A stretch of 64,000 nucleotides of DNA from Fragilariopsis cylindrus CCMP1102 (taxonomy: Eukaryota > Bacillariophyta > Bacillariophyceae > Bacillariales > Bacillariaceae): contig FMBT01000318.1 of assembly GCA_900095095.1 (NCBI GenBank), positions 62,001 to 126,000 on the forward strand, in the 5' to 3' direction. A program made the translations under genes and the position numbers. Below are positions 55,721 to 59,651 of the stretch, piece by piece. Below the pieces are notes generated by a model, which was not told where the DNA came from, searched no databases, and saw nothing but the letters and a program-made list of their open reading frames with translations. How positions within the stretch are numbered: the stretch's first letter is position 1; every line of letters starts with the position of its first letter.

Positions 55721-56905
55721 ATGCAAAGATTGAGCCGCATAGTACTTGGTTCGACCTTGTTAACTCTGTCTAGTACAAGTAGGACCATTAAAGGTGCCGC
55801 TGGAATCCACAATGCGGCGACTGCTTTCTTGATCAAAAACAACAATTTATCCCCTTCGTTGTCACATCCTCGTCGTCGTCGTCGTCGTCCTGGAACTGAC
55901 GGGAACCATGCAATGTATCATATTTCCCAACCGCCGCTTATGATGATATCGACTAGTACTTTTGTAGACGATAATCTGAATGCTACCAAAACCAACGATG
56001 AGGAGGAAAAAAACAATGACGACAAAATTTTGCCATATATCGAAACTTCGCATAATTCTGTTACCATTAAGATACCAAATAAAAACGATGAAGGAAACGA
56101 AAATGATATCCTATTTCAACCACAATACTTCTCTACATCACTCGCGAATACTACAGTAGCTGCTCGTGAATTGGATAAAGCAAGTATATGGGTAGAAGTT
56201 CCGATGTCAAGAGCAAGTCTAATTGAAGAAATAGAAACAGCAAACTTAGGTTTCCAATTCCATCATGCGGAAGGTAGTACTGCTAAGTTGAATGCATGGC
56301 TACGAGATGATATTCCATCGAAGATACCAGAATTTGCCACGCACCATGTAGGAGTAGGAGCGGTTGTTATCAATAGTAGAGACGAGATTTTATGCATCCG
56401 AGAACTTAGAAAGAATTATCACCCATGGAAGATCCCAACTGGACTTGCGGATTTGGGCGAATCAATCCACGATGCAGCAGAACGAGAAGTCCTAGAAGAG
56501 ACAGGGATTTCTGCGACATGCCATAGCGTATTAAGTATCCGTCACTCACATGGTATGTCTAATGGTAGGAGTGATCTATTCTTTATTTGTCGTTTGATAC
56601 CAGATAATAATGAAGACAATGATGATCACGGTAATGGTGGTGATGGTAACGATAATAATATTCGTACACCCGTTCCACAAGCTTGTGAAATTGCTGAAGC
56701 AAAATGGTTGCCTTTATCAGAGTACAGAGATATGATAGATGGACTAACTGAAGATAGTAACGGTCATCCAGTTATGTCCTTTGTAATGGATGAAATTTTT
56801 GACAAGGGAAAAGGGATAAACATGCGAGAAGTGGATAGTGTAATACCTGGACGTAGTCGAACACCACTTTACTTTCCAGACATGACAAACAACAACATTC
56901 AATAA
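55721..56905 (+). CDS. Nudix hydrolase, NUDT6-like
   Basis: Predicted 394 residues, one exon. After an organelle-type N-terminus comes the helper domain found in NUDT6 and plant NUDX2/7/10 (IWVEVPMSRASLIEEIETAN, then FQFHHAEG, LNAWL). The Nudix domain starts at HHVGVGAVVIN, and the Nudix box (about residues 241-263) reads GLADLGESIHDAAEREVLEE, then TGI, so all conserved Gly, Glu and Arg are present. These enzymes cleave nucleoside diphosphates linked to another group, such as ADP-ribose or NADH, with Mg2+. An Asp/Asn/Gly-rich insert lies near residues 296-312. Confidence 0.9.
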   Translation: MQRLSRIVLGSTLLTLSSTSRTIKGAAGIHNAATAFLIKNNNLSPSLSHPRRRRRRPGTDGNHAMYHISQPPLMMISTSTFVDDNLNATKTNDEEEKNNDDKILPYIETSHNSVTIKIPNKNDEGNENDILFQPQYFSTSLANTTVAARELDKASIWVEVPMSRASLIEEIETANLGFQFHHAEGSTAKLNAWLRDDIPSKIPEFATHHVGVGAVVINSRDEILCIRELRKNYHPWKIPTGLADLGESIHDAAEREVLEETGISATCHSVLSIRHSHGMSNGRSDLFFICRLIPDNNEDNDDHGNGGDGNDNNIRTPVPQACEIAEAKWLPLSEYRDMIDGLTEDSNGHPVMSFVMDEIFDKGKGINMREVDSVIPGRSRTPLYFPDMTNNNIQ

Positions 56906-57686: not shown

Positions 57687-57974
57687 TTAACGGGCACGTT
57701 GACGCATCTTACGGCGTTTGCGTCGGAGACGTCGCATACGCTTTTTGCGCCACTTCTTACGCATACCAGAGTTGACAGCCATTCTCATGTCAAGGCTTTC
57801 ATCTTCTTCGATACCGTTGCTTTCGAGGGAACCCTCAACGAGCATATCGGAACCACGCATCAAACAAAGCATTTGAGATGGTACGAATTCAGCATTCTCA
57901 ACCTGAAGCTTTAAGGCTTCGACGGAGGTGGCAGGGTCAACCTCGTAGGCTGTGGATCCAACAAAAATTTGCAT
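57687..57974 (-). CDS. Ubiquitin-like domain fused to ribosomal protein eL41
   Basis: Predicted 95 residues, one exon. Residues 1-70 form a ubiquitin-like domain: MQIFVGSTAYEVDP at the start as in ubiquitin or FUBI, LMRGSDMLVEGSLESNGI at the position of the ubiquitin core, and a final AVNSG. Directly after comes MRKKWRKKRMRRLRRKRR plus KMRQRAR, the complete 25-residue eL41, the smallest 60S protein. Ubiquitin is classically fused to eL40 and eS31, and a ubiquitin-like domain to eS30; here the partner is eL41. The junction has one Gly rather than the usual Gly-Gly, so processing may differ. Separate initiation at the inner ATG is possible. Confidence 0.88.
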   Translation of the reverse strand: MQIFVGSTAYEVDPATSVEALKLQVENAEFVPSQMLCLMRGSDMLVEGSLESNGIEEDESLDMRMAVNSGMRKKWRKKRMRRLRRKRRKMRQRAR

Positions 57975-58596
57975 ATTGATTTTTTTAAGAGTTTTAAAAG
58001 TTTTTATAAAGGATTAGGTTGCTCAACCTAATTAATGAATAATGAATAATGAATAATTAATAATTAAAATAAAATGAAATAAAATATAAAATAAAATAAG
58101 AGGAAAGAACGAAATGGAAAAATGGCAAGGACAGAATTAGCACGAGTCGACTGATATCATTATACTACAGTTCAATCAACATACAGTGTCACTTTTAGAC
58201 ATCACTCGAACATTCCATGCCGCCATTGTCGTAACTTACTTTTTTAAAGGAACATACAGCTAATCTGAGCATAACAAGTTAGAAGTTGAAAAAGAGTCAT
58301 ACCAGTACGTAACGAGAGCAACCAAAACTGCACAAACACGAACTATTTTTCACAAGCGACTACTGTACTAACTGGCACACAACCACTGTACTGTTTTTAC
58401 TGCTGTACGTAAAAACCTACAGCAATTTAGTACTGTACATAAATCAATCGTATTTAAAATTTGTGGTGGTCTGTCAATCTATCCTATAATGGACCCATTC
58501 GACTCAAAACAATTCACAAATCGAAACGAATGAATTCGAATTTCGAAGAATTGTTCGACTTCAACTTGGTTTGCCGAGTATCGTTCTGTCTCAGCA
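57975..58596. other. Divergent intergenic region
   Basis: 622 bp upstream of the eL41 fusion. It has an A/T-only stretch with AATGAATAATGAAT repeats at 58030-58100 and several TACTGTA motifs at 58365-58440. Confidence 0.45.
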
Positions 58597-58930: not shown

Positions 58931-59651
58931 ATGAGTTCTGCAACGTCACGAGGTGTGAAACAGAAATTGGTACATTTATTATTTCGACAAAAGTATAAAC
59001 GAACTGGACCAGAAAGTCATAAATTATTAGATTTTTCTATTTATTCCTATGATGACTTACGAAAAGAATATCTAAAACGACTTCATTTAATACATCCGGA
59101 TAAGCATAAAATCGCCACCGCCACTACTACTATGTTATGACTACTTCTGTCAGAAACAACAATAGTAATAATAAAAATTCACATTCGAATATAGAAGAAT
59201 TAAAGAAAGAGTTCCAAGAATTACAAAGTACGTGGGATAAATATGAAGAATTAACGAAGAGGATGATGAATAGCAGTAATGGTACAGGTAGAACAGAAGC
59301 GAATTTTACAAAATTTGGAGTAGGATGTTCATTTAGTGACAACGACGAAGAACGGGCACTTAGAGATGAAATCACTGATCAAGCCTGTCGTGGATGGTTT
59401 TCAAGTGGGTTGATAACATCATCTGATGGTAGTACTTCAACTACCAATATTATAGCGCAAAAACCAAAAAGAAATCACTTATCGATGACAAAATGTTTGT
59501 TGAGGTAGATATGCATGACGACACAAAAAATGATAATGATGTATACGCATCATCGAACGATCGAATAATACAGACGAACGACAAGTCACGTCGGGATGCT
59601 TCTCGAAAGACACTGGTGCTAGGAGTTAAGTATGTTCAGTATGATAAGTAA
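58931..59651 (+). CDS. J-domain protein, two frame breaks
   Basis: About 240 residues if one base is added at TT 59135-59136 and one at A4 59490-59493. The J domain is near the N-terminus: FSIYSYDDLRKEYLKRLHLI then HPDKHK, the invariant HPD loop, with the last helix EELKKEFQELQSTWDKYEEL in the next frame. J proteins stimulate ATPase activity of Hsp70. The C-terminal half has FTKFGVGCSFSDNDEERALR, seen in small mitochondrial J proteins, and a Lys/Asp-rich tail. Asn repeats sit inside the J-domain loop. The breaks are most likely errors. Confidence 0.72.

Follow-up and report, generated by a model that had tools for sequence, protein, structure and literature searches.

A divergent ubiquitin-like domain in one reading frame with ribosomal protein eL41 in Fragilariopsis cylindrus

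In the window, the 64,000-nucleotide stretch of DNA analysed here, a divergent ubiquitin-like (Ubl) domain and the ribosomal protein eL41 are joined in one frame of 95 codons, which runs from ATG to TAA on the minus strand (Table 1). The original prediction had placed such a fusion at positions 57687–57974 and had named no strand; the frame is present there, and the plus strand of the same interval is interrupted by a stop. We read the locus as a working eL41 gene in which eL41 is the C-terminal tail of a divergent Ubl, which would serve as a disposable cis-chaperone and be removed by a predicted cut after Gly70, a reading to which we give an even chance. Inspection by eye suggests, as neighbours of the fusion gene, two plus-strand ORFs that we take to be NUDIX-like (55721–56905) and DnaJ-like, with an HPD motif (58931–59140).

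Table 1. Features of the Ubl-eL41 gene (positions in the window)
Feature	Position	Strand	Basis or detail
Start codon ATG	57974–57972	−	Frame translation
Divergent Ubl domain, residues 1–70 (MQIFV...AVNSG)	57765–57974	−	Pfam, PDB phmmer, global alignment, hhalign, codon usage, residue and charge comparison
Ribosomal protein eL41 (eS32), residues 71–95, 25 residues including its own Met	57690–57764	−	Pfam PF05162, PDB eL41 chains, eL41 pattern match
Junction Ser69-Gly70/Met71, equivalent to ubiquitin Gly75-Gly76, with a putative cut after Gly70	57762–57770	−	
Stop codon TAA	57687–57689	−	
Internal in-frame AUG at codon 65, an alternative start giving MAVNSG-eL41	57780–57782	−	A at −3, G at +4
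120 nt 5′ of the start, without ATG	57975–58094	−	G+C 23% over 200 nt upstream

The reading frame, its eL41 tail and copies in the assembly

The Ubl region carries a frame-specific coding signal. Specifically, a codon-usage model built on 21 mechanically called ORFs from the window, each 250 residues or longer, gives this region +18.6 bits in the fusion frame and less than 0 bits in each of the other five frames. For the eL41 part, codon usage is uninformative (−1.5 bits, with two antisense frames slightly higher). A run of 70 open codons has a probability of 0.9% under a composition model; in the window itself, 260 of 2560 ATGs, real genes included, are preceded, with no intervening stop, by an in-frame ATG 70 or more codons away, so the open frame alone is weak evidence.

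The identity of the C-terminal segment is clear. Residues 71–95 score 29.7 bits against Pfam Ribosomal_L41 (PF05162), above the family cut-off of 22.3, and match solved eL41 chains in the PDB almost letter for letter. This segment comprises 18 Lys/Arg and no Asp/Glu. Throughout the assembly (67.9 Mb in 818 contigs), a profile search places eL41 at two positions only, both of them in the same Ubl fusion, and DNA patterns for each half of eL41 recover the same two positions, with none in a reversed control. The assembly thus yields no free eL41. The two contigs that carry the fusion are 99.9% identical over 3069 columns, with 0 substitutions and 3 gaps, and hence no Ka/Ks can be obtained from them. 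We read the two copies as haplotypes of one gene, because the contigs are near-identical and other ribosomal genes also lie at two places (two each for eS30, eS28 and eL37, one for eL39).

The statement that the fused eL41 is the only one is valid for the assembly, which may lack genes, since eS31 was not found there either. Specifically, the single candidate scored with PF01599 gave no match, a human eS31 tail found no counterpart in the assembly, and none of the 17 translated ubiquitin-type loci (of 30 fetched, from 79 matches) contains eS31, which is absent from the assembly, split by an intron, or very divergent. Among the other ribosomal genes, eL39, eS28 and eL37 show, by eye, an apparent intron right after the start codon, with exon 1 reaching little beyond Met. 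The same assembly gives 27 matches to silicon transporters, the best at 757 bits, which points to a diatom as the most likely host.

Eukaryotic relatives were sought in two contig collections by protein scan. The viral collection gave 22 pattern matches and the genome collection 210; none was confirmed in either, and these negative results do not argue against conservation in diatoms. A degenerate eL41 pattern gave 0 matches in the viral collection, while a slightly shorter pattern identified 25 loci in the genome collection, all archaeal. At these loci the open frame extends 2 to 65 codons beyond the start of eL41 in the upstream direction, and no Ubl is present in the last residues examined (at most 40), only short extensions. 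In particular, 20 of the 25 loci carry an in-frame stretch of the M(K/R)RSSRxWKK type upstream of eL41, and one such sequence aligns with archaeal eL41 chains of 36–37 residues and eukaryotic chains of 39 residues, including 3j79_g, which we take to be P. falciparum eL41. The extension of P. falciparum eL41 may therefore be ancient rather than parasite-specific.

The ubiquitin-like domain

Residues 1–70 open with MQIFV, the same as ubiquitin, and their further resemblance to ubiquitin emerges from whole-length comparison. Global alignment pairs the domain with the organism's own ubiquitin from end to end, with 19/70 residues identical (z 9.3), and with human FUBI, likewise with 19/70 residues identical (z 6.8). 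The z values for the organism's own double-ubiquitin variant and NEDD8-like protein are 7.7 and 5.9, and in none of these four comparisons did any of 2000 shuffles score as well, in contrast to the own ubiquilin-like domain (z 1.1, 307 of 2000 shuffles as good). Furthermore, hhalign against a profile of six Ubls from the same genome gives a probability of 60% and an E-value of 8.6e-5 for a single comparison. In a phmmer search of the PDB with the Ubl alone, the matches listed (60 of 228, E up to 10) are all ubiquitin-related and include ubiquitins, ubiquitin variants, ubiquitin-derived affilins and Ub-eL40; a single natural ubiquitin reaches E ~0.05, and the better-scoring rows are mostly polyubiquitins, in which repeats add up.

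Family-level searches count against the Ubl identity. The Pfam ubiquitin model (PF00240) gives 13.5 bits (E 0.062) over residues 8–39 only, below its cut-off of 25.4, and the fusion locus is absent from the 79 matches (E up to 0.1) of a PF00240 scan of the whole assembly. When the whole protein is compared locally with the rest of the genome, no close paralogue of the Ubl emerges; beyond the two fusion copies, there are weak matches to ubiquitin (E 1.9) and two further weak ones near E 8. NCBIfam, a prokaryote library, gives no match. Judged against the beta-grasp fold of the ubiquitin family, single-sequence AlphaFold modelling gives only weak predictions (mean pLDDT 67 and 61), with a beta-beta-alpha-beta-beta order but no resolved structure for the final quarter of the domain, and fold searches return no significant match.

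The residues that are kept and lost fall into two groups. Relative to the positions of ubiquitin that form its core or serve in conjugation and recognition, and in the alignment with the organism's own ubiquitin, 14 of 15 core positions are hydrophobic and the remaining one is a gap, compared with 17 of the 56 other aligned positions, a contrast to be read with the alignment method itself favouring hydrophobic core matches. Only one of the seven ubiquitin lysines is retained (K27; 6/7 lost). In the Ile44 patch, position 8 is deleted and the other residues read Met44, Asp68 and Arg70; Ala stands in place of Arg72 and Ser in place of Gly75, and Gly76, the P1 glycine, is kept. With 1 Lys, 2 Arg and 13 Asp/Glu, the domain has a net charge of −10, compared with 0 for the organism's own ubiquitin. 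Human FUBI has the same numbers of Lys and Arg, 11 Asp/Glu and a net charge of −8; the Ubl is thus acidic and lysine-poor in the manner of human FUBI, a shared property rather than a curated criterion. Judged from one sequence, the core of the domain seems to be under constraint, while the features needed for conjugation and recognition seem to be gone.

Predicted cleavage and alternative explanations

In the cis-chaperone reading, the acidic Ubl would fold first and would shield or solubilise the highly basic 25-residue peptide. A Ubl protease would then cleave behind Gly70 and leave the standard Met-Arg-x-Lys-Trp N-terminus, which, once released, could enter the small-subunit cavity formed by h27, h44 and h45, while the freed Ubl would be discarded rather than conjugated. 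Met is retained before Arg, and Met71-Arg would be the normal mature start. The mode of action would resemble that of FUBI on eS30 or of ubiquitin on eL40 and eS31, and removal of the Ubl would possibly act as an assembly checkpoint. This reading is supported by the presence of eL41 only in fused form in the assembly, by the coding signal in the Ubl frame, and by the alignment with ubiquitin and FUBI. The apparent retention of the hydrophobic core and P1 glycine, together with the FUBI-like charge and lysine content, would further support it.

Published structures and mutants outline what such a cut might achieve. Archaeal eL41 has its N-terminus or N-terminal extension enclosed by h27, h44 and h45, close to the P site (PMC7005279, PMC11724365), the small subunit contributes more than the large one to holding the eL41 helix (PMC7005279), a 14-residue extension takes P. 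falciparum eL41 into an 18S pocket (PMC4086275), and both eS30 and eL41 of Leishmania penetrate the drug pocket of the decoding centre (PMC5693986). In yeast, ubiquitin on eL40 and eS31 aids the production of both proteins (PMC8122580). Late 40S maturation suffers in human cells when FUBI-eS30 cannot be cleaved, and replacement of its Gly-Gly by Ala-Ala, or of the last Gly by Val, blocks cleavage (PMC8354635). By analogy, the Ser-Gly junction of the F. cylindrus fusion counts against cutting, and we hold the cut after Gly70 to be evenly balanced between occurring and not.

The single Gly that the original prediction noted before the eL41 Met is borne out (Ser69-Gly70-Met71). The original prediction offered three fates for the fusion: cutting by a variant protease, no cutting, and bypass by internal initiation. 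The second of these, which is unlikely in our judgement though of some weight, is that the fusion stays uncut and the Ubl remains on the ribosome. In Giardia this outcome is reported for Ub-S27a, a far-diverged form of ubiquitin that escapes cleavage and is retained in the ribosome (PMC3684764), and non-cleavage has been ascribed to its altered Gly-Gly junction (PMC8122580); the Ubl on eL41 is likewise divergent and its junction is likewise not Gly-Gly. However, the Giardia case concerns eS31, at a different ribosomal site, whereas the eL41 N-terminus is located inside or close to a tight rRNA cavity at the decoding centre and P site, where a 70-residue domain attached directly to it would probably clash. 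Because a folded domain on the eL41 N-terminus should clash in this way, an uncut fusion is less likely than cutting or bypass.

Bypass would mean that the Ubl is a separate product and that translation of eL41 begins at Met71 or Met65, whether from a second mRNA, an internal promoter or internal initiation; we regard this as rather improbable. In favour of it, eL41 has kept its own Met in the fusion. Nine AUGs occur from the first start through Met71, two of them out of frame, and the codon-65 AUG has the best context of the nine, being alone in combining A at −3 with G at +4. A start at codon 65 would leave a short extension on eL41, of a kind tolerated in Plasmodium (PMC4086275) and archaea (PMC7005279). 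On the other hand, eight AUGs precede Met71, the first of them with A at −3, so ordinary leaky scanning would seldom get as far as Met71 and is an unlikely route to it. Neither is there an AG splice acceptor directly 5′ of Met71, and the 70-codon frame enters eL41 without a stop. A comparison of the promoter with those of other ribosomal genes, made by eye, gave no trustworthy common motif.

It is very unlikely that eL41 is an ordinary free gene preceded by a Ubl frame that arose by chance, is decaying or reflects an error of assembly. The sub-threshold Pfam score, the silence of the PF00240 scan at this locus, the frequency of long open ATG frames in the window and the unresolved predicted folds would fit such an origin, but the end-to-end similarity to ubiquitin and the frame-specific coding signal speak against it, as does the identical fusion on two contigs, which is weak independent evidence since the second may be the other haplotype. 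Splicing of a Ubl exon at the junction to another tail, with eL41 partly intronic, is suggested by a GTATG donor-like string across the junction (CTCTG/GTATGCG) and by the introns apparent by eye just after the ATG of several ribosomal genes, but it is extremely improbable with the unspliced frame complete and the sole eL41 found in the assembly.

Relation to known ribosomal fusions

The cis-chaperone reading places the gene among the fusions of ubiquitin or Ubls to small basic ribosomal proteins. The original prediction presented a fourth class of ribosomal fusion as new, a claim that the literature does not sustain. In a survey restricted to ubiquitin domains that share 80% or more of their residues with the yeast protein, Martin-Villanueva et al. 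(2021) report a few ubiquitin fusions to eS8, eS19, uL1 or eL41 in Pfam (PMC8122580), and Ub-eL41 is also mentioned in PMC11354881. These Ub-eL41 fusions have the identical partner pair; the Ubl described here, with 19/70 residues identical to the organism's own ubiquitin, would fail the survey threshold. Ubiquitin is also fused to P1 and P2 in the alga Bigelowiella natans, in a paper whose main text does not contain the term 'L41' (PMC6332867). In the mostly open-access literature covered, we found no description of the divergent Ubl-eL41 form. The kind of fusion is thus already known, and what appears new is the combination of a strongly divergent, FUBI-like acidic Ubl, a Ser-Gly junction, eL41 as the partner, and the status of sole eL41 source found.

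Each known system shares part of this combination. Like Ub-eL40 and Ub-eS31, the fusion has a ubiquitin-type domain N-terminal to a small basic ribosomal protein; unlike them, it lacks a true ubiquitin that is nearly identical to the organism's own, ends in Gly-Gly and feeds the ubiquitin pool, and most positions of ubiquitin function are lost from the Ubl on eL41. A standard Ub-eL40 is encoded in the same genome, with the junction ...LRLRGG/VYDPSL. Inspection by eye further suggests, with names assigned from motifs, what are presumably a Ub-NiSOD fusion, a ubiquitin ahead of an Sde2-like protein, and a NEDD8-like gene; the double-ubiquitin variant presumably lies behind an apparent signal peptide and carries a C-terminal extension.

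Divergent ubiquitins on eS31 in various protists are likewise released from sequence conservation; P. falciparum UbS27a has 24/76 residues in common with ubiquitin (PMC10457151), compared with the 19/70 found here. In Plasmodium and Giardia, however, the partner is eS31 rather than eL41, and the Giardia fusion is the one reported as uncut.

Another close likeness is to FUBI-eS30 (FAU): there, too, a Ubl of about 70–74 residues, acidic and poor in lysine, precedes a small basic ribosomal partner whose N-terminus points toward the decoding centre. In contrast to FUBI-eS30, the Ubl is on eL41, the junction is Ser-Gly instead of FUBI's Gly-Gly, and the domain is closer in sequence to the organism's own ubiquitin (z 9.3) than to human FUBI (z 6.8). 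Furthermore, eS30 is free in this genome: at both places found, it begins with MGKVHGSL and has an in-frame stop 8 codons earlier. A bolder proposal, which we consider distinctly doubtful, is that the FUBI-type guard moved from eS30 to eL41 in this lineage, where removal of the Ubl by a protease accepting Ser-Gly would license maturation of the small subunit or the joining of the subunits. It is based on the location of both N-termini in the decoding centre and on a naked eS30 alongside an eL41 with an acidic, lysine-poor Ubl.

The role of ubiquitin-like domains ahead of ribosomal proteins is unsettled and is called a mystery in PMC8122580. A Ubl without most ubiquitin functions, carrying a 25-residue passenger, would separate a role in chaperoning or assembly from the supply of ubiquitin and would open the cis-chaperone idea to testing. 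Cutting of this Ubl from eL41 would also imply a protease that accepts Ser-Gly.
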